A stretch of DNA of 64,000 nt from an uncultured Methylobacter sp. Its GTDB lineage: Bacteria; Pseudomonadota; Gammaproteobacteria; Methylococcales; Methylomonadaceae. Shown here in pieces: positions 45,747-56,778 of the stretch. Where the stretch lies: the NCBI GenBank assembly GCA_903832775.1, contig CAILCX010000062.1:1-64000 (forward strand). The letters are read 5' to 3'. The notes under the pieces are model-generated. The model ran no database searches. It was not told the origin of the DNA and saw nothing but the letters and a program-made list of their open reading frames with translations. Position 1 is the stretch's first letter. Each line of letters begins with the position of its first letter. A program made the position numbers and the translations under genes.

Positions 45747-46871
45747 GTGAAGAAAACAAAGCAACTTTCCGCAGGTCTGATCTTAATGGCTTTTGGCCTT
45801 GGAACAGCGCAGGCGGATTACACGCTCAATTTAATGAAAGGGGTTACAAAGGTCAGTAATGACATTTATGACCTGCACATGCTTATTTTATGGATTTGTG
45901 TAGCCATAGGTGTGGGTGTGTTTGGTGTTATGTTCTATTCGATTTATCATCATCGTAAATCAAAAGGACATAAAGCGGCGCAGTTTCATGAAAATACGAC
46001 CGTTGAAATTATCTGGACTATTATCCCGACTCTGATTTTAATCGGTATGGCGATACCCGCTACCAAGACCATGATAGAGCTGAATGATGTGCAAGCATCT
46101 GATATGTCAATTAAGGTTACAGGTAAACAATGGTATTGGGATTACGAATATCTCGATAATGGTGTTCATTTTGAAAGCCATTTGGATGAGGCGAGTGAAA
46201 AAACTCATCGTACAGCTGGAGCAGATCCTCGTTCTGTCCCACATTATTTATTGAATGTTGATAAGCCTTTAGTAATTCCGGTCAACAAAAAAGTTCGGTT
46301 CGTCTTGACTTCTGGTGATGTGATTCACTCTTGGTGGGTTCCTGATTTAGGCTGGAAAAAAGATGCAAACCCTGGTTTTATTAATGAAGCATGGACTTTA
46401 GTTGAGAAGCCCGGCACTTATCGCGGCCAATGTACTGAGTTGTGCGGTAGAGACCATGGTTTTATGCCGATTGTTGTTATTGCAATGGAGCAACCTGAGT
46501 ATGATGTCTGGGTTGCGAAGACACTGGAGCATCAAAAGCAAAAGCCGGATTTGAGCGATCAAACTTCGGGGCAGCTTATGGCCCATGGAGAATCAGTCTA
46601 TTTGAAAAATTGTGTTGGTTGTCATCAAATTAACGGGGCTGGCGTTCCCGGTTTAATTCCTGCTTTAACGGGTAGTGCGAAGGTCACTGGAAAGTGGGAA
46701 GCATTGGATGGTTTCTTACGCGCAGGTACTGCCAAAATGCCATCGTTTGCTAAATTGAATGCCAAGGAATATGCAGAGTTGATGACTTATGTGCGCAACA
46801 ATCTGGGTAATAAAGTCGGTGATGAATTGCAACCCCGTCAAACCGCGCTACCTGATGATGACGATGAATAA
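45747..46871 (+). CDS. coxB: cytochrome c oxidase subunit II with C-terminal cytochrome c domain (caa3-type)
   Basis: CuA site CTELCGRDHGFM; C-terminal haem motif CVGCH and KMPSF. Confidence 0.96.
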   Translation: MKKTKQLSAGLILMAFGLGTAQADYTLNLMKGVTKVSNDIYDLHMLILWICVAIGVGVFGVMFYSIYHHRKSKGHKAAQFHENTTVEIIWTIIPTLILIGMAIPATKTMIELNDVQASDMSIKVTGKQWYWDYEYLDNGVHFESHLDEASEKTHRTAGADPRSVPHYLLNVDKPLVIPVNKKVRFVLTSGDVIHSWWVPDLGWKKDANPGFINEAWTLVEKPGTYRGQCTELCGRDHGFMPIVVIAMEQPEYDVWVAKTLEHQKQKPDLSDQTSGQLMAHGESVYLKNCVGCHQINGAGVPGLIPALTGSAKVTGKWEALDGFLRAGTAKMPSFAKLNAKEYAELMTYVRNNLGNKVGDELQPRQTALPDDDDE

Positions 46872-46923
46872 GATCGCGATTTTCATATTGACTCATTTTC
46901 TAACTATTCTCGAGGTATAAAGT

Positions 46924-48564
46924 ATGTCTGCTGTCGTAGTTGAACATGATCATCACGCCGATGATCATCACGATCACGGTCCTGCCAAGGGACTGTTAAG
47001 ATGGATAATTACCACTAATCACAAAGACATTGGCACATTGTATCTATTGTTTGCGCTGGCCATGTTTTTTGTGGGTGGATCAATGGCAATGGTTATTCGT
47101 GCCGAATTATTTGAACCGGGTTTACAGTTTGTAGATCCAGCTTTCTTTAATTCCATGACTACCATGCACGCCTTGGTTATGGTTTTTGGTGCAGTTATGC
47201 CGGCCTTCGTTGGTTTGGCAAACTGGCAAATTCCTTTAATGATCGGTGCCGCTGATATGGCATTGCCACGCATGAACAACATGAGTTTCTGGATGTTGGT
47301 TGCTGGAGTATTATTGTTGGCCAGCACTTTATTTATGGAAGGCGGAGCTCCTAATGGTGGTTGGACTTTATATCCACCGTTGGTATTGCAACCGATTACG
47401 GTCGGGAAAGCGTTGCCATTCGCAGTTTTCTCTGTGCATTTATTGGGTATTTCATCAATCATGGGTGCGATCAATATTATTGCGACTATTTTCAATATGC
47501 GTGCGCCAGCTATGAAACTGATGGACATGCCATTGTTTGTTTGGACCTGGTTGATTACTGCTTTTTTGTTGATTGCTGTTATGCCTGTATTTGCCGGCGC
47601 AGTGACTATGTTATTAACCGATAAGTTTTTCCATACCAGCTTCTTCAATGCAGCAGGTGGTGGTGATCCGGTTCTTTATGAACATATTTTCTGGTTTTTC
47701 GGGCATCCTGAAGTGTATATCATGATTCTGCCAACTTTTGGCGTTGCATCAACGATTATTCCAGTATTTGCCCGTAAACCTTTATTTGGTTATGCATCGA
47801 TGGTTTGGGCGACAGCTTCTATTGCGTTCCTGTCCTTTATCGTTTGGGCGCATCACATGTTTACGGTTGGTATGCCAATTGCGGGTGAGTTGTACTTTAT
47901 GTATGCCACAATGTTAATTGCAGTTCCTACCGGTGTTAAGGTCTTTAACTGGACTGCGACTATGTGGAAAGGTGCGATGACTTTTGAAACGCCGATGTTG
48001 TTTTCAATTGCTTTTGTTGTGTTATTTACCATGGGGGGATTTACCGGCTTGATGATGGCAATCGCTCCTGCTGATTTTCAGTATCACGATACTTATTTTA
48101 TCGTTGCCCATTTTCATTACACGTTAGTTCCTGCATCTGTTTTTATCTTGATGGCGGCGGGTTACTTTTGGCTGCCTAAATGGACTGGCCATATGTATAA
48201 CGAAAAAATTGGTCAACTGCATTTTTGGTTATCAACCATTTCGGTCAACATTCTGTTTTTCCCACAGCATTTCTTGGGTCTTGCAGGCATGCCCCGTCGG
48301 ATACCAGACTATGCAGTTCAATTTGCTGACTGGAATATGATATCAAGTATTGGTGGATTTATCTTTGGTGCCAGTCAATTACTATTTTTGTATATCGTGA
48401 TAGATACCATCAAAGGCGGTACAGGCGAAAAAGTATCTGATGAGGTTTGGGAAGAAGCGAGCAAGCACAGTCTGGAATGGACTTTGCCATCACCGGTTCC
48501 TTATCATACCTGGACGACACCGCCGGCGATTGTGCCTACTGAACACGTTTTGGACTCTCATTAA
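46924..48564 (+). CDS. coxA: cytochrome c oxidase subunit I
   Basis: TTNHKDIGTLYLLF, FWFFGHPEVYIMILP, DTYFIVAHFHYTL. Confidence 0.98.
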   Translation: MSAVVVEHDHHADDHHDHGPAKGLLRWIITTNHKDIGTLYLLFALAMFFVGGSMAMVIRAELFEPGLQFVDPAFFNSMTTMHALVMVFGAVMPAFVGLANWQIPLMIGAADMALPRMNNMSFWMLVAGVLLLASTLFMEGGAPNGGWTLYPPLVLQPITVGKALPFAVFSVHLLGISSIMGAINIIATIFNMRAPAMKLMDMPLFVWTWLITAFLLIAVMPVFAGAVTMLLTDKFFHTSFFNAAGGGDPVLYEHIFWFFGHPEVYIMILPTFGVASTIIPVFARKPLFGYASMVWATASIAFLSFIVWAHHMFTVGMPIAGELYFMYATMLIAVPTGVKVFNWTATMWKGAMTFETPMLFSIAFVVLFTMGGFTGLMMAIAPADFQYHDTYFIVAHFHYTLVPASVFILMAAGYFWLPKWTGHMYNEKIGQLHFWLSTISVNILFFPQHFLGLAGMPRRIPDYAVQFADWNMISSIGGFIFGASQLLFLYIVIDTIKGGTGEKVSDEVWEEASKHSLEWTLPSPVPYHTWTTPPAIVPTEHVLDSH

Positions 48565-48621
48565 GGCATAGAAAAATACATTGCCTAACTTCTGTTTTGG
48601 CAATGTATTGACTAAAAATAA

Positions 48622-48720
48622 ATGACTACTAAAAATAAAAATATTTTAACGGCTTTAATTCTTGGGGTTATCACTGTGACTTTTTATATTGTCGCAGTTG
48701 TGCAAGCCGTTTCAAAATGA
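48622..48720 (+). CDS. putative cytochrome oxidase small assembly protein (32 aa, single TM)
   Basis: MTTKNKNILTALILGVITVTFYIVAVVQAVSK*; stop overlaps ctaG start (ATGA); position coxA-[small]-ctaG. Confidence 0.72.
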   Translation: MTTKNKNILTALILGVITVTFYIVAVVQAVSK

Positions 48721-49268
48721 GTGAAGATGTCAGCAAGAAAAACGTTAAGTTAGCGAGAATATTGCTGTTAGTCGCCCTGGGAATGTTTGGTTTTGGCTAT
48801 GCACTCGTTCCTCTTTACGATGTTTTGTGTGAATGGAAATGGTTAGAGCGAGATAGACCTGATGCCATTAAAAAAGCGCCAGAGATTGGATATACAGTTG
48901 ATTTGAACAGGGAAGTAACCGTTGAATTCATGACGACACTTAATGAATCGACGCCAATGGTATTTCGTACAGAAAAAAAACAGTTAAAAGTGCATCCGGG
49001 TGAATATTACACGGTTAATTTTTATGCTGAAAATAAGACTGATAAGGCCATGGTCGCCAGAGCTATTGCAAGCTTTTCACCTGCCGTCATAAGTCGTTAT
49101 TTTGAAAAAATAGAGTGTTTTTGTTTTTCGGAGCAGACTTTTAAGGCGAAAGAAGCAAAAACAATGCCGATGCGTTTTGTGATTAATCCTGAGATTCCTG
49201 AGGAATACAAAACTATTACGCTGTCATATACATTTTTTGATAATACTGAAAAATCAGTAAAAAATTAA
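48717..49268 (+). CDS. ctaG: cytochrome c oxidase assembly protein CtaG/Cox11
   Basis: GYALVPLYDVLCEW, KIECFCFSEQ. Confidence 0.96.
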   Translation: MSEDVSKKNVKLARILLLVALGMFGFGYALVPLYDVLCEWKWLERDRPDAIKKAPEIGYTVDLNREVTVEFMTTLNESTPMVFRTEKKQLKVHPGEYYTVNFYAENKTDKAMVARAIASFSPAVISRYFEKIECFCFSEQTFKAKEAKTMPMRFVINPEIPEEYKTITLSYTFFDNTEKSVKN

Positions 49269-49280
49269 AAGGGGAAGCTT

Positions 49281-50132
49281 ATGTCTACAAACACCGCTTA
49301 TTACATCCCACATAAAGCGACCTGGCCGGTTATTGGTACGGTTGGTTTAGTGACTATGCTGGCTGGATTTGCAAATTATTTAAATGGTTCATCAATAGGT
49401 CCTACATTAATGGTGGTAGGTCTGGTTGTTTTTATTGTTATGTTAGTGGGATGGTTTACGTTACAGGCTCATGAAAGTGAGGCCGGAATGTACAGCACTC
49501 AGGTGGGTGTTTCCTACCGTATGGGCATGATGTGGTTTATTTTTTCTGAGATCATATTTTTTGCAGTGTTTTTTGGTACCTTGTGGTACACGCGTAACTT
49601 GTCTGTGCCTTGGTTGGGTGAGGGCGCTACCAAAGAATTACTGCATTCTACTTTTGAAGCGACTTGGCCAACTAATGGCCCCGGTAAATTAGGTGGTGAT
49701 TTTAAACCTATGGGTGCTTGGGGTTTGCCTTTTTTAAATACGCTTCTTCTGTTAAGCAGTGGTGTAACATGTACTTGGGCGCATCATGGTTTACTTGCAA
49801 AAAATCGCGACCAGTTAATCAAAGGCTTGATTGCAACAGTATCGTTAGGCTTTTTATTCGTTACTTTTCAAGCATTCGAATATCATGAAGCTTATACCGA
49901 AATGGGTTTGACCTTAGGCTCAGGTGTATACGGATCAACGTTTTTTATGTTAACCGGTTTTCATGGGTTCCACGTTTGCGTTGGTGCCATCATTCTAAGT
50001 GTCGTACTGTTTCGTAGTTGGAAAGGTCATTTTCAACCAGAAAACCATTTTGCTTTTGAAGCAGCGGCTTGGTACTGGCATTTTGTTGACGTGGTGTGGT
50101 TAGGTTTATTTGTATTTGTGTACTTGATCTAA
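49281..50132 (+). CDS. coxC: cytochrome c oxidase subunit III
   Basis: GMMWFIFSEIIFFAVFFG, LTGFHGFHVCVG, WYWHFVDVVWLGLFV. Confidence 0.97.
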   Translation: MSTNTAYYIPHKATWPVIGTVGLVTMLAGFANYLNGSSIGPTLMVVGLVVFIVMLVGWFTLQAHESEAGMYSTQVGVSYRMGMMWFIFSEIIFFAVFFGTLWYTRNLSVPWLGEGATKELLHSTFEATWPTNGPGKLGGDFKPMGAWGLPFLNTLLLLSSGVTCTWAHHGLLAKNRDQLIKGLIATVSLGFLFVTFQAFEYHEAYTEMGLTLGSGVYGSTFFMLTGFHGFHVCVGAIILSVVLFRSWKGHFQPENHFAFEAAAWYWHFVDVVWLGLFVFVYLI

Positions 50133-50145
50133 ATCCGCAACACAC

Positions 50146-50188
50146 AAAAAAAGCGCTGCCTAACAAAACAGGTGGCGCTTTTTTTTTG
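50146..50188. terminator. hairpin terminator after coxC
   Basis: aaaaagcgctgcct-aacaaaac-aggtggcgcttttttttt. Confidence 0.8.
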
Positions 50189-50309
50189 TCATGTCATGAG
50201 AGTTGTCGATAAGCAAAGGTTAATGCATGCGAAAGGTGAAGGACGAAAGCCAAAAACGACTAGTTTGGTTTTTTGGAGATTTATAATTAAATAACTATCT
50301 AATGATTAA

Positions 50310-50567
50310 TTACTTAGCTATATCGGTTTGCACCTGTTGGTTGTTATGAATTCTGGACCCGATACCCTGAGGTTCATACAAACCCGTTGCAACAGCAATA
50401 AAAATAAAAATAAATAGCATTAATGAAAGTCCAATTCTAAAAGTCAGTGCCTTAACTGTTTTTTTAGATTGTGCTTTTGTTTTTGGATTGAGCAAATAAA
50501 ATAGGGCGGACCCAAGACTGATAATTATCAGGATAAAGGCAATTATAACGACGCTTTTAATAATCAT
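50310..50567 (-). CDS. DUF2909 twin-TM protein
   Basis: 85 aa, two TM, GLYEPQGIG tail; typical cox-cluster neighbour. Confidence 0.8.
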   Translation of the reverse strand: MIIKSVVIIAFILIIISLGSALFYLLNPKTKAQSKKTVKALTFRIGLSLMLFIFIFIAVATGLYEPQGIGSRIHNNQQVQTDIAK

Positions 50568-50647
50568 GATAGGGAGTGTTTAGTGATAAAGTTTTCCTAT
50601 TCTCGTTTATTAGTGTCTCTCTGCCAATAGATTAAATAAAATAAAGC

Positions 50648-51385
50648 ATGATCAATAATAAGTTCTGCACTATCAAGTTTCAATTAGTTCCCTCATTAGT
50701 ATATTTAAGTTTGCTAGCACTGCTTCTTGGATTGGGTAATTGGCAATTGAGTCGGTCAGACGAAAAAAGACAATTTCTTGCTTTGCAGGAACAAGGATTA
50801 ATGCTTTCAGACGTTATAAAGTTAACAGGTCGCAGTGAAGATAATGTTGAAATGCTCCGGTTTAGAAAAACTCAGGTAATCGGGTATTATGATCAGGCGC
50901 ATCAGTTTTTGATAGATAATCAAATTAGTTCTGGCAAAGTCGGCTACTCTGTTTTGACCCCCTTGGTTCTTGAAGGCGAATCTAAGGCAGTATTGGTTAA
51001 TAGGGGTTGGATTCCGTTAAATCAGGACAGATCAGTATTGCCGGTTTTGGAGCTAAGCTCCGAATTGATAGCAGTTACGGGTCGGATAAATAGTTTCCCT
51101 AGTGTCGGTATTAAGTTAGCCGGAGCAGAAAAACCAACAGATACTTGGCCATCTGTTATACAGGTAGTTGATAGTCATATTTTGGCCAAGCATCTGGCTT
51201 ACCCGTTATTTAACTTTCAGATAGAATTGGATAAGAATCTGCCTGAAGGTTTTAAACGGGAATGGCAAACATCGACGATTATGTTGCCTGAGCAACATAC
51301 AGCCTATGCAGTTCAATGGTTTGCCTTGGCATTTACTCTAACCTTACTCTTTATTTGGTACACTTTTAAAAGCAATGATAACTGA
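50648..51385 (+). CDS. SURF1 family oxidase assembly protein
   Basis: LGLGNWQLSRSDEKRQFLAL, VLVNRGWIPLNQDR, YAVQWFALAFTL. Confidence 0.93.
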   Translation: MINNKFCTIKFQLVPSLVYLSLLALLLGLGNWQLSRSDEKRQFLALQEQGLMLSDVIKLTGRSEDNVEMLRFRKTQVIGYYDQAHQFLIDNQISSGKVGYSVLTPLVLEGESKAVLVNRGWIPLNQDRSVLPVLELSSELIAVTGRINSFPSVGIKLAGAEKPTDTWPSVIQVVDSHILAKHLAYPLFNFQIELDKNLPEGFKREWQTSTIMLPEQHTAYAVQWFALAFTLTLLFIWYTFKSNDN

Positions 51386-52115
51386 GCAGCAAAAGAAAAA
51401 TCGATTATTAATTCTGGGCATTTTTGGCTTAACCATAATTCCCTTTTTAATTGCCTGGGTCTTAAAAGAAAATCCCGGGCTAGTAAAAGGCACAACAAAT
51501 CGTGGGGAGTTAATTACACCAGCAGTAACAACGGAAAGTAATGATTTTATTGGTTTTGATGATTTTTCAATTACAAATACTGGAGAGTTGCACGGTCACT
51601 GGTTGATAGTCAATGTGATACCCAATAAGGGATGCAATCAAGTCTGCCTGGATTCATTGCTTAAAACCAAGCAGTTAAGGCTTATGTTAAACAAGGAGTT
51701 GCCACGTACTCGTCGTATCGTTCTGCTTTTTAACGAACCGGCTACTGAGCAGGCCAAGCAATGGTGGTTAAAAGACACGTTGTTATGGAGACTGCGTCGA
51801 ACAGATAACAAGGAAGATCAGGATCTGTTGTCGAACCTGCTTCATGAAGAAAATATAATTGATGATGCGTTGATAGCTAAGTTAATCGGCAACGAGAATC
51901 GGGAGTTTGCACTTAATTCAGAGCTTATCAGAATTAAACCGAGTGCCGTATTGGCTAAAAAAATAATTGAAATCAGGAAAGGTACAATTCCAGACGGCAT
52001 GTTGTTGTTAATAGATCCACTGGGAAATCTAATGATGCAATATGAGCCGGGTTTTAATACTTACAAAGTAAAAGATGATCTTATGCATCTACTTAAAATT
52101 TCACAAATTGGATAG
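51375..52115 (+). CDS. SCO/thioredoxin-like cox-cluster membrane protein with C-x3-C
   Basis: N-terminal TM; GHWLIVNVIPNKGCNQVCLDSLLKTKQLR; position SURF1-[this]-ctaA. Confidence 0.75.
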   Translation: MITEQQKKNRLLILGIFGLTIIPFLIAWVLKENPGLVKGTTNRGELITPAVTTESNDFIGFDDFSITNTGELHGHWLIVNVIPNKGCNQVCLDSLLKTKQLRLMLNKELPRTRRIVLLFNEPATEQAKQWWLKDTLLWRLRRTDNKEDQDLLSNLLHEENIIDDALIAKLIGNENREFALNSELIRIKPSAVLAKKIIEIRKGTIPDGMLLLIDPLGNLMMQYEPGFNTYKVKDDLMHLLKISQIG

Positions 52116-52124
52116 TGACAAAAA

Positions 52125-54053
52125 ATGTTTAGAAAAATAACTTTATCTGGCCTTATTTTAACGTTAATTATTATAGTCTTGGGTTCATGTGTCAGATTGA
52201 TTGGCAGTGATTTGATGTTGTCCAGCCAAAATCCTACCGTGATATTCATTGCTAATAGCCATATTTTCCTGACAGCAGGTTTGGGCTTATTAATCGTATC
52301 GTTGAGTGTATTGTCCTGGTGGCAAAAATGTCGATTCTCAGCAGTCAGTTCAACATTAGCTTTAGTCGTTTTAATTGCACTGCAAGGTGCCTTGGATTTT
52401 TGGGCTAAAGAAATATTACTTATGCCTATTATTATGACCATGCATTTGTTATTGGCCATGATAACTTTTTGGTTGATTTTTAGATTGTATTTACTTGTCA
52501 ATCCTAAGGTGCACTTGATAAAGGCAACTGAACGAATAGCAGGCAACGGTTTTATATTTTTTACCGGCTTTGCCATGATTGTTTTAATACTACAGATAGT
52601 TCTTGGTATCTGGGTAAGTACTAATCATGCAGCATTGGCTTGCACCGGTTTTCCTCAATGTAACGGTTCCTGGTGGCCTCAAGCCGATTATCAGGTAGCA
52701 CTTGATCTATTTAGCGGATTAGATACGGGTTATACAGGTGTTTTCGCCTTTGAGGGTCAAGTTGCTGCAAACTGGTTGCACAGAGTAGGATCACTATTTA
52801 CTTTTATTGTACTCAGTTTGGTGATGCTGAGTGCAACTTCAGCGCAGCATTCAAAAGCGTTAAGACGAACCGGCCTCTGGTTGAGCGTATTATTATTGTT
52901 ACAGATAGGCTCTGGTATTGTTAGCGTTAACCTTGATGCGCCTTTATGGGCTTCAGTAGCACATAATATGATTGCTACGTTGTTGATGTTACCGTTAATT
53001 GCCATCGGCTTTTACGGTCGATATGCATTTGTGGATCAGCTTAAGTCAGATGAGGGAGCTTCACCACAAGTTATTCCGAGTATTTCGGCAAGAGAAGCTC
53101 TGGTCGAAGCAGTTTATGTAATACCTGAACCAGAGTCGCTATATTTAAGGCTCAAGACACAATTACGACGGACCCGCTCAGGACTTGGTGGGGTGTTGGC
53201 TCATATTCCTTTAGGCCAAAAAGAGATTTCTGGTGATTTATTGGAAGAAATTGAAGCCAGTCTGTTGATGGCTGATATAGGTATCGATGCTACCACCGAA
53301 ATCATCAAGCGTTTAACCGAAAGTGTTGAACGACATCAACTAAATGATGGTGAGGCGTTAGCTGAAGCTTTAAAACAAGAATTACTTGAAATGCTATTAC
53401 CGTGCAGTATGAATCTGCATATTCCCAAGCAGGATAAACCGTTTGTAATTTTAGTGGTTGGTGTTAATGGCGCGGGCAAGACGACAACGATCGGTAAATT
53501 GGCCAAAAGATTGCAGGCACAAGGTCATAGTGTGATGCTGGCCGCCGGGGATACTTTTAGAGCAGCGGCTGTTGAGCAATTACAAACCTGGGGTGAGCGC
53601 AATAATATTCATGTAGTGGCTCAACATACCGGCGCAGATTCAGCTTCAGTTATTTATGACGGCGTACAATCTGCTCAGGCAAAAGGTATTGATGTACTGA
53701 TTGCAGATACCGCAGGTCGCTTGCATACAAAATCCAACTTGATGGACGAACTAAAAAAAGTAAAGCGGATTATCGGCAAGCTGGATGAAACTGCTCCACA
53801 TGAAGTTCTATTGGTATTGGATGCTGGAACAGGTCAGAACGCTTTATCGCAAACCAGATTATTTAACGAAGCGGTCGCTTTAACCGGGCTCGTTCTAACC
53901 AAGCTTGATGGCACGGCAAAAGGCGGTATTATTTTTGCCTTAGCCAAACAGTTTAAAATCCCAATTCGTTTTATTGGAATAGGCGAGGGGATTGATGATT
54001 TGCAAGATTTTGATGCGGAAGCGTTTGTGGATGCTTTGTTTGTCAAAGATTGA
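52125..54053 (+). CDS. ftsY: CtaA/COX15-like 8-TM domain fused to FtsY SRP-receptor NG GTPase
   Basis: aa 1-303 CtaA-like (8 TM; ASTNHAALACTGFPQCNGSWWP-type loop; H46/H107/H219/H280); aa ~340-642 complete FtsY (DLLEEIEASLLMADIGIDATTEII, GVNGAGKTTTIGKLA, DTFRAAAVEQL, DTAGRL, TKLDGTAKGG, GIGEGIDDLQDFDAEAFVDALF). Single open frame. Confidence 0.92.
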   Translation: MFRKITLSGLILTLIIIVLGSCVRLIGSDLMLSSQNPTVIFIANSHIFLTAGLGLLIVSLSVLSWWQKCRFSAVSSTLALVVLIALQGALDFWAKEILLMPIIMTMHLLLAMITFWLIFRLYLLVNPKVHLIKATERIAGNGFIFFTGFAMIVLILQIVLGIWVSTNHAALACTGFPQCNGSWWPQADYQVALDLFSGLDTGYTGVFAFEGQVAANWLHRVGSLFTFIVLSLVMLSATSAQHSKALRRTGLWLSVLLLLQIGSGIVSVNLDAPLWASVAHNMIATLLMLPLIAIGFYGRYAFVDQLKSDEGASPQVIPSISAREALVEAVYVIPEPESLYLRLKTQLRRTRSGLGGVLAHIPLGQKEISGDLLEEIEASLLMADIGIDATTEIIKRLTESVERHQLNDGEALAEALKQELLEMLLPCSMNLHIPKQDKPFVILVVGVNGAGKTTTIGKLAKRLQAQGHSVMLAAGDTFRAAAVEQLQTWGERNNIHVVAQHTGADSASVIYDGVQSAQAKGIDVLIADTAGRLHTKSNLMDELKKVKRIIGKLDETAPHEVLLVLDAGTGQNALSQTRLFNEAVALTGLVLTKLDGTAKGGIIFALAKQFKIPIRFIGIGEGIDDLQDFDAEAFVDALFVKD

Positions 54054-54200: not shown

Positions 54201-54857
54201 ATGTTAAAGTTTGAAAATGTCAGTATGAGATATCCCGAAGCCGGGGATGTATTGCGAAATGTCAGTTTCGATTTAAAGCATGGTGAAATGGCATTTTTGA
54301 CCGGGCATTCAGGGGCCGGAAAAAGCACGTTATTGAAGCTGATAGCTGTCATTGAGCGTAGTAGTCGAGGTCGAGTATTATTGGATGGTCAGAATCTGAA
54401 TGAGGCAAAAGATAGGCAAGTTCCTTATATACGCAGAAAAGTCGGATTGATTTTTCAGGATTACAAGTTGCTACAAGATAGAACGGTTTTTGATAATGTA
54501 GCCTTGCCCTTGGTGATAGCGGGTTATGGGCATCATGAAGTTTCCCGTCGTGTTCGTGCTTCGTTAAGCAAGGTTGGTCTGTTGGGTAAAGAGAGAAAGT
54601 ATCCCGCAGTATTATCTGGTGGAGAGCAACAGCGGGTAGGTATTGCAAGGGCAGTGGTTAACAAGCCGCCTATGATTTTGGCAGATGAGCCTACTGGTAA
54701 TCTTGATCCTGAGTTATCAGCAGAAATAATGCATTTATTTGAGCAGTTTCAACAGGTTGGCGTAACTGTGTTGATTGCTACCCATGATATTGCCCTGATT
54801 AGCCAAATGGATCATAGGATTTTAAAATTGGACCATGGCCAACTGGTAACGAGTTAA
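54201..54857 (+). CDS. ftsE: cell division ATP-binding protein FtsE
   Basis: GHSGAGKSTLLKLI, LSGGEQQRVGIARAVVNKPPMILADEPTGNLD. Confidence 0.97.
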   Translation: MLKFENVSMRYPEAGDVLRNVSFDLKHGEMAFLTGHSGAGKSTLLKLIAVIERSSRGRVLLDGQNLNEAKDRQVPYIRRKVGLIFQDYKLLQDRTVFDNVALPLVIAGYGHHEVSRRVRASLSKVGLLGKERKYPAVLSGGEQQRVGIARAVVNKPPMILADEPTGNLDPELSAEIMHLFEQFQQVGVTVLIATHDIALISQMDHRILKLDHGQLVTS

Positions 54858-54860
54858 GCA

Positions 54861-55853
54861 ATGAAGCACGAAAATAGAAAACATAATAATGCCGAGCGTT
54901 TGCAAACCAAAAAATCCGGCGGTAATTTTATCGATAAATGGCATGCTTATAAAAACCTGCATGCTCATGCGTTATTTTCGAGTCTAGGTCGTTTGGTTGG
55001 GACTCGTTTCTCCTCAGCTATGACCATAGTGGTCTTGGCGATTGCAATTTCTCTGGCTAGCGGCTTTTATATACTGGTTGCAAACCTTCAACAGTTGGCT
55101 GGCAATTTAGTGTCCAGCAATCAAATATCATTATTTCTTAAAGACGAAGTTTCAGAAATACGAGCACGAAGTTTTGCCGAAAAAATTAGGCAGAACTCCG
55201 ATATTCAGGATGTTAAAATTATTTCCAAAGAACAGGCTCTAGGCGAGTTTCAAGCCTATAGCGGCTTTGGAGATGCTGTAAAAGCGTTGGAAAAAAATCC
55301 TTTGCCGATAGTGATTCAAGTGTTACCTACGAATTCATTTGAAAATGAACAGGCTTTGGAAAAAATGCTTGAAGATTTTAAACGGTTGACAGAAGTTGAT
55401 TTCGCTCAAATGGATATGCAATGGGTAAAACGCCTTCAATCCATTATTGAAGTTGCCCGGCGTGGTGTGACTTTATTAAGCTTATTGCTGGGTGCAGGCG
55501 TGTTATTTATTACGGCAAACACTATTCGACTTGAGTTACATAATCGGAAGGATGAGGTGATTATAGCTAAGTTGGTGGGGGCGACAAATAATTTTATTCA
55601 TCGGCCATTCTTGTACAGTGGCTTTTGGATAGGCTTTTTTTCCGGAGTAAGCGCATGGTTTATTGTGACAATAATCATGCTGATTTTAAAGCAACCCGTA
55701 GAAAATCTATCCAGGCTTTATGACGGCAGTTTTCATCTGCTATTTTTGGGGTTTCTCGATACATTGATGCTGTTGTTTATTTCATCTGTGTTAGGGGTTG
55801 TCGGTTCCTGGATAGTGCTCCACTTTCAACTTCAGCAATTAAAACCCGAATAG
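54861..55853 (+). CDS. ftsX: cell division protein FtsX
   Basis: FtsX topology and RLELHNRKDEVIIAKLVGATNNFIHRPFLYSG. Confidence 0.96.
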   Translation: MKHENRKHNNAERLQTKKSGGNFIDKWHAYKNLHAHALFSSLGRLVGTRFSSAMTIVVLAIAISLASGFYILVANLQQLAGNLVSSNQISLFLKDEVSEIRARSFAEKIRQNSDIQDVKIISKEQALGEFQAYSGFGDAVKALEKNPLPIVIQVLPTNSFENEQALEKMLEDFKRLTEVDFAQMDMQWVKRLQSIIEVARRGVTLLSLLLGAGVLFITANTIRLELHNRKDEVIIAKLVGATNNFIHRPFLYSGFWIGFFSGVSAWFIVTIIMLILKQPVENLSRLYDGSFHLLFLGFLDTLMLLFISSVLGVVGSWIVLHFQLQQLKPE

Positions 55854-55860
55854 AAAATTA

Positions 55861-55887
55861 TTGGCACTCTTGATTAGAGAGTGCTAG
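55861..55887. promoter_or_regulatory. CIRCE-like operator (HrcA site) upstream of rpoH
   Basis: TTGGCACTC-N9-GAGTGCTAG versus CIRCE consensus TTAGCACTC-N9-GAGTGCTAA (one mismatch per arm). Confidence 0.85.
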
Positions 55888-55890
55888 AAT
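55861..55890 (+). promoter_or_regulatory. possible sigma70-like promoter of rpoH overlapping CIRCE
   Basis: TTGGCA (55861-55866) - 18 bp - TAGAAT (55885-55890), about 30 bp before ATG 55921. Confidence 0.5.
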
Positions 55891-55920
55891 TTGGTAAAGT
55901 TTTTTATCAGGGGGAACACA

Positions 55921-56778
55921 ATGAGTACCGCTTTAGCTTTACCCGTTAATTTATCAGTCGGGACATTCGACGCATATTTAAATGTTGTCAGGCAAATGCC
56001 TAAGTTGACCGTCGAGCAGGAACTTGAACTGGCGTTTAAATATAGAGATGATGGTGATCTCGAAGCCGCTCGCGAATTAGTGATGACCAATTTACGTTTT
56101 GTGGTTCACGTTGCCAGAGGTTACAGCGGTTATGGCTTGTCAATGCCGGATATTATTCAGGAAGGTAATATTGGTTTGATGAAGGCCGTAAAACGTTTTG
56201 ATCCAGATGTTGGAGTGCGTTTGGTTTCTTTCGCTGTGCATTGGATTAAGGCTGAAATTCATGAATATGTGATTAAAAACTGGGGCATAGTCAAAATTGC
56301 TACGACTAAAGCGCAACGTAAATTATTTTTTAACTTGCGTAAATCAAAGCAGGATCTGGGTTGGTTATCCAATGACGAGGCCGTTGCTATTGCCAAAGAC
56401 CTGGATGTCGATGTCAGCATAGTTTATGAAATGGAAAAGCGTCTGGGTAGCAAGGATATGTCGTTTGATATGCCGGTCGATGAAGCAAGTGAAGAAAGCT
56501 TTGTGGCTCCAGCCAGTTATTTGCAGCAATATGGTGCTGATCCTGCTGAATTGCTTGAGAATTCTGATTGGGTAGGACATGAGCAGGATTTGTTGGCTGA
56601 TGCAATGGCTGGATTGGACGAGCGTAGTCTGGACATTTTATCGAGTCGCTGGTTGATGGACAAAAAAGCTACTTTGCATGAGTTGGCCGAACGTTACAAT
56701 GTTTCGGCTGAGAGAATCAGGCAGTTGGAGCAAAATGCCATGAAAAAATTAAGAGTAGCCGTAGAATTCGCAGCTTAA
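55921..56778 (+). CDS. rpoH: RNA polymerase sigma-32 factor
   Basis: LRFVVHVARGYSGYGLSMPDIIQEGNIGLMKAVKRFDPDVGVRLVSFAVHWIKAEIHEYVIKNW; gene order ftsE-ftsX-rpoH; ATG 55921 after AGGGGGAACACA. Confidence 0.97.
   Translation: MSTALALPVNLSVGTFDAYLNVVRQMPKLTVEQELELAFKYRDDGDLEAARELVMTNLRFVVHVARGYSGYGLSMPDIIQEGNIGLMKAVKRFDPDVGVRLVSFAVHWIKAEIHEYVIKNWGIVKIATTKAQRKLFFNLRKSKQDLGWLSNDEAVAIAKDLDVDVSIVYEMEKRLGSKDMSFDMPVDEASEESFVAPASYLQQYGADPAELLENSDWVGHEQDLLADAMAGLDERSLDILSSRWLMDKKATLHELAERYNVSAERIRQLEQNAMKKLRVAVEFAA

Follow-up and report, generated by a model that had tools for sequence, protein, structure and literature searches.

FtsY is the receptor that brings membrane-protein-making ribosomes to the cell membrane, and engineered E. 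coli constructs have been the basis of a long debate on whether the bacterial protein needs to leave and rejoin the membrane in a cycle. Reportedly, an NG domain joined to an unrelated membrane protein was functional in E. coli (work of Zelazny in 1997). Here, we analyzed a 64,000-nucleotide stretch of an uncultured Methylobacter sp. genome (contig CAILCX010000062.1; hereafter, the window), in which FtsY is encoded as the C-terminal part of a protein whose N-terminal part resembles the haem A synthase CtaA. The locus raises the question of whether this fusion is real and whether its product is a membrane-integrated SRP receptor, a haem A synthase, or both.

Positions 52125-54053 of the forward strand, on which all window features described below lie, form a single ORF of 642 codons with no interruption. 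In Pfam, its product matched COX15-CtaA at aa 41-289 (E 4e-35; PF02628, 121.7 bits over 29.9), and SRP54_N and SRP54 GTPase in its C-terminal part. Profile search delimited a complete FtsY NG at aa 364-639, and the protein scored 371 bits against the NCBIfam ftsY equivalog TIGR00064 (cut-off, 260.7). The 642-aa fusion protein belongs to the FtsY family. Its N and G domains, with the G motifs intact, were assigned to 53205-54050 from profiles and structure matches. Upstream of the fusion gene lies a cox cluster, coxB-coxA-ctaG-coxC-surf1-SCO-position ORF (45747-52115), and downstream lie the usual followers of ftsY, ftsE-ftsX and an rpoH-like sigma factor (54201-56778). The SCO-position ORF (51375-52115), which separates surf1 from the fusion and is 246 aa long, showed no Pfam match below 1e-6; its placement is conserved order-wide.

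AlphaFold, run on the fusion with 62 natural homologues, predicted eight transmembrane (TM) helices with high confidence (aa 2-27, 37-66, 70-96, 101-124, 141-166, 209-237, 244-269, and 274-299). The whole fusion had a pLDDT of 87, and the CtaA part modelled alone had one of 94; the arrangement of the domains was uncertain (pTM 0.57), and the linker was disordered in the model (pLDDT < 50 at aa 310-327). By structure search against PDB, the NG part matched the E. coli FtsY NG (6cqp, TMt 0.91) and an NG+1 construct (2qy9, TMt 0.92), and the CtaA part matched, below E 0.001, only the haem A synthases 6a2j and 8aw5. A phmmer search of PDB with the window CtaA part gave no match, whereas matches were obtained with the family profile and by structure. 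From alignment and model, TM1-TM4, corresponding to the former catalytic half of CtaA, are encoded at 52125-52496, and TM5-TM8, corresponding to its haem-b cofactor half, at 52545-53021. Because 10 Lys/Arg residues were counted inside and 2 outside, the positive-inside count fits an N-in/C-in topology. The original prediction, made from the window sequence, had described one unbroken 642-aa frame with eight hydrophobic helices, the C-terminal half of which is CtaA-like, a full FtsY NG with intact G motifs, and ftsE-ftsX-rpoH as the usual downstream neighbors, all of which was borne out here; its proposal that an even number of helices with the N-terminus inside places NG in the cytoplasm was supported by the predicted helices and the charge count.

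We then asked whether the genome encodes another FtsY. In the source genome (99.6% complete, 215-contig draft), profile search for the SRP54 GTPase matched the fusion FtsY, Ffh, FlhF, and one protein below the cut-off. On the fusion itself, the ffh and FlhF models scored 230 and 68 bits, respectively, each below its own cut-off, which sets the protein apart from Ffh and FlhF. No second, stand-alone ftsY was found by this search, and the fusion is the sole FtsY of the genome, which also encodes 4.5S RNA and Ffh. The full-length fusion would be the working receptor.

A draft in 215 contigs might join two genes through an assembly artefact or a strain-specific frameshift. The probability of this explanation is negligible: the fusion proteins share the junction across more than 140 genomes, some of them single-contig, at 48-78% identity. 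Within the order, the fusion was intact and free of stops in 105 of the 107 genomes of families f1-f6, single-contig genomes included, and it is therefore not an assembly artefact. Thus, the COX15 plus SRP54 architecture is present in the related Methylococcales, with the frame uninterrupted across the junction. One of the two exceptions had no FtsY match; the other (G201), the only frame-broken copy, was truncated in the G domain and is probably an assembly error. In the family of the source genome (f1), the fusion is present in about 143 of 151 genomes, a number obtained by elimination of seven genomes without an FtsY match and one split over contigs. Apart from G201, the genomes without the fusion showed no FtsY over the cut-off, i.e., gaps. 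A named scan found fusion loci in Methylobacter, Methylomonas, Crenothrix, and Methylococcaceae/Methylococcales assemblies, and at a Cycloclasticus locus the CtaA part alone matched. From this match and the order, the sister families f7 and f8 appear to be Cycloclasticus-type. A fusion-like CtaA-linker match, probably of methanotroph origin, also lay on contig L190, which bears the label 'Bathymodiolus brooksi thiotrophic gill symbiont'. Another apparent CtaA fusion, of 702 aa in L148, was rejected because its frame overlaps a recQ-like gene on the opposite strand.

In f7 and f8, ctaA and ftsY are separate genes; in f7, the cox cluster ends with ctaA-ctaB, and ftsY stands first in a separate cluster with ftsE-ftsX-rpoH. 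In f1-f6, the cox cluster passes through the fusion directly into ftsE-ftsX (rpoH), and ctaB of the source genome is located on another contig. The fused proteins formed one side of a single branch in the NG tree (115 rows, support 95), showing that the fusion originated once, at the point of contact between the cox cluster and the ftsYEX-rpoH cluster. Outside the order, no fusion was found among the matches listed for 322 genomes of the class and 299 of the phylum, in which a fusion would rank top. The simplest account would be a rearrangement that removed ctaB and put ctaA against ftsY. The fusion does not exactly mark the genomes that possess a copper methane monooxygenase; the fusion-free f7 and f8 also carry PF02461 proteins.

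Next, we analyzed how FtsY is translated from the fusion gene. The cytoplasmic linker in place of the FtsY A domain was assigned to 53022-53138 from the model and a start-codon scan. GTG303 is its only in-frame ATG, GTG, or TTG between TM8 and NG, and no Shine-Dalgarno-like motif precedes this codon. In 108 fused proteins, the linkers had a median length of 41 aa and a median acidic-over-basic excess of six. No ATG was present in 97 of the 108 linkers, and 32 were devoid of start codons altogether, indicating that the fusion is most likely the only form in which FtsY is made. An ATG with a Shine-Dalgarno-like motif occurred in 5. Across the 108 linkers, no shared internal start site for FtsY release was found, and a conserved internal start was ruled out by this survey. 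In genus g12 (L102, L103), an EA dipeptide repeat lengthens the linker up to 65 aa, with no ATG.

A working FtsY might still be freed from the fusion by linker cleavage or by weak internal initiation at GTG303, given that the linker is flexible and modelled at low confidence, that GTG or TTG codons occur in some linkers, and that the N-terminal anchor of E. coli FtsY is reportedly cleavable (Weiche 2008, as cited in PMC5533587). However, the start-codon counts reveal no common site, and clade g14 (L081:5589-7280 and L128:1512-3203), which lost exactly TM2 and TM3, keeps an even helix number and the haem-b site; an even number would be needless if NG were free. We regard such a release as quite improbable. 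A receptor that stays joined to its anchor agrees with the original prediction, which had read GTG303 as the sole candidate start, the product as a fusion, and the A domain as reduced to a linker; all three points stand, the last with a disordered linker of ~40 aa.

CtaA is built of two four-helix bundles that superimpose on each other, an N-terminal catalytic one and a C-terminal haem-b-binding one (PMC8239418). We compared the two halves by counting residues in the 108 fused proteins, two of which are duplicates, using B. subtilis numbering. The C-terminal half is kept: H216 was present in 106/108, H278 in 107/108, and Cys pair 2 in 106/108, with only 2, 1, and 2 changes on the tree, respectively. 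In the window copy, these residues are H219 (52779-52781) and H280 (52962-52964), both at haem-b ligand positions, and C173/C179 in a periplasmic loop (52641-52661). The N-terminal half is eroded: E57 remained in 42, H60 in 70, R61 in 64, H123 in 71, and Cys pair 1 in 69 of the 108, with 18, 18, 13, 17, and 13 changes on the tree. The whole catalytic set (Cys pair 1, E57, H60, R61, and H123) was intact in 30 of 106 fused proteins. Mean identity over 136 genome pairs was 0.74 for NG, 0.33 for the fused N-half, 0.42 for the fused C-half, and 0.61 for stand-alone CtaA. Median dN/dS values were 0.034 for NG, 0.098 for the C-half, 0.146 for the N-half, and 0.289 for the linker, well below 1 throughout. 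With the N-half as an internal control, selection maintains the haem-b site, not catalysis.

In the window copy, Cys pair 1 and the equivalents of E57 and R61 are gone, and H60 and H123 are kept as H46 and H107. This loss looks recent because close relatives (L006, L008, and L010) retain the catalytic set. The window copy belongs to the haem A synthases by family and fold; it is not classed as one by enzymatic function, given the loss of Cys pair 1, E57, and R61, and it is unlikely to make haem A. A stand-alone CtaA of type 1.3 was found besides the fused copy in nearly all fused genomes examined; that of the source genome is at L035:1432-2424, and other rows are L136-L154. H60N together with the absence of Cys pair 2, which defines CtaA type 1.3 (PMC8239418), was found in all 18 type-1.3-like rows from fused genomes, two of these being the source genome's copy. 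Haem A synthesis may have been taken over by type 1.3 CtaA in most lineages.

These data bear on a bifunctional reading, in which the CtaA half makes haem A and the NG half serves as the SRP receptor, an arrangement that would link membrane insertion with oxidase assembly. The fusion gene lies at the end of the cox cluster, and the enzyme may work in the 30 of 106 fused proteins with the complete set. In the f5 genome G154 (L075:6861-8951), moreover, the fused copy was the only CtaA found, scored 272 bits, among the highest, and has a complete catalytic set; G154 is possibly a surviving ancestral bifunctional state. However, the window copy lacks Cys pair 1, E57, and R61, the catalytic residues changed 13-18 times on the tree, g14 is without TM2-TM3, and the second CtaA in nearly all fused genomes examined is better conserved (61% vs 33-42% mean identity). 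We judge a bifunctional enzyme very unlikely as a general account. The tie to haem/oxidase biogenesis that had been suggested for this locus was not supported, given the missing catalytic residues, the incomplete set in most relatives, and the separate CtaA elsewhere in the genome.

The near-invariance of the C-half raises the further possibility of a haem- or redox-gated receptor, in which NG would respond to haem supply or redox state through the C-terminal haem b or through the Cys pair on the periplasmic side, with its activity or location set accordingly. The tree places 17-18 changes at the corresponding histidines of the N-half but only 2, 1, and 2 at H216, H278, and Cys pair 2, residues that anchoring by itself would not require. 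Nevertheless, haem and disulphide may merely stabilise the bundle, and a disordered linker with an uncertain domain arrangement (pTM 0.57) speaks against signalling. In addition, the fusion persists in three lineages (L111, L113, and L126) from which haem ligands or Cys pair 2 have disappeared, indicating that haem is not strictly needed and that anchoring is the minimal function. Gating is an unlikely but conceivable addition. The C-terminal bundle of the anchor probably binds haem b, judging from the conserved ligands.

Taken together, we favor, with a probability of about 0.85, the reading that the fusion is the cell's only SRP receptor, permanently membrane-anchored by a CtaA-derived bundle, gated by alphaN1, and retaining the C-terminal haem-b-type bundle. 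A natural, permanently membrane-integrated receptor, as originally proposed, is supported by the sole FtsY, the eight predicted helices, and the lack of conserved internal starts. In a methanotrophic Methylococcales ancestor, a cox cluster that ended in ctaA, ctaB being absent there, would have been placed directly before ftsY-ftsE-ftsX-rpoH, and the ctaA and ftsY reading frames would then have fused. The eight-helix CtaA moiety (N-in, C-in) would take the role of the FtsY A domain as membrane anchor, with NG held in the cytoplasm by a flexible ~40-aa linker. Haem A synthesis would mostly have passed to the separate type 1.3 CtaA, after which the catalytic N-terminal bundle decayed repeatedly. 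The C-terminal bundle, with haem-b ligands and disulphide, would be kept as a folded, probably haem-bound, anchor core, and this role may be the reason for its retention.

The alphaN1 regulatory/lipid helix region of FtsY NG+1, ESLYLRLKTQLRRTRSGLGG, was assigned to 53139-53204 from alignment and model, and its residues R342, L343, L347, and T350 were invariant in 62 rows. In E. coli, soluble FtsY adds little to targeting (PMC2780400), a TM-tethered NG supports growth, and a tethered NG without alphaN1 (dN1) fails, being pre-activated (PMC5533587). The natural fusion agrees with a receptor that is tethered at all times yet remains under alphaN1 control; alphaN1 would be kept as a switch coupling lipid contact to activation, so that constant tethering would not pre-activate the receptor.

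The fusion resembles E. coli FtsY in its NG (~60% identical), intact G motifs, alphaN1, and adjacent ftsE-ftsX-rpoH; however, the E. coli protein is peripheral with an acidic A domain, in place of which the fusion has an eight-helix integral membrane moiety. With its hydrophobic N-terminal anchor joined to NG, the modelled fusion would by analogy be an integral-membrane FtsY of the Streptomyces type, a membrane-embedded bacterial FtsY (Bibi 2001, Maeda 2008, as cited in PMC5533587); the anchor differs in origin, being a short hydrophobic segment there, as far as that citing paper describes it, and an eight-helix former enzyme with a conserved haem-b site here. The engineered TM-NG (PMC5533587) likewise combines a membrane-protein anchor with NG and is functional in E. 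coli, but it is artificial, whereas the Methylococcales fusion is natural, order-wide, and long-standing. With CtaA/COX15 (B. subtilis 6a2j, Aquifex 8aw5), the fusion shares the fold, eight helices, haem-b histidines, and Cys pair 2, although the window copy and most relatives have a decayed catalytic half and carry a C-terminal NG. CtaA-CtaB fusions (PMC8239418) also join CtaA to another protein; the partner there is the preceding pathway enzyme, whereas that in Methylococcales is an essential targeting GTPase. In the eukaryotic SRP receptor, the FtsY homologue SRalpha is also permanently tethered, being held by the integral SRbeta (PMC2780400), but that receptor has two subunits and its anchor is an unrelated GTPase. 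No description of a CtaA-FtsY fusion was found in searches of an open-access full-text library.

The fusion represents a real variant of the bacterial SRP receptor that extends across the order. Most of one bacterial order would depend on an SRP receptor that is unable to leave the membrane and has kept the alphaN1 switch, and retention of alphaN1 in a tethered receptor is what the two-step model predicts (PMC5533587). The fusion would also exemplify an essential targeting GTPase that captures a metabolic membrane enzyme as its anchor, with the internal duplication of CtaA providing a built-in control in which the haem-b bundle appears to have been selected for and catalysis dropped. If true, haem or redox gating would tie co-translational membrane-protein insertion to the respiratory state in methanotrophs.
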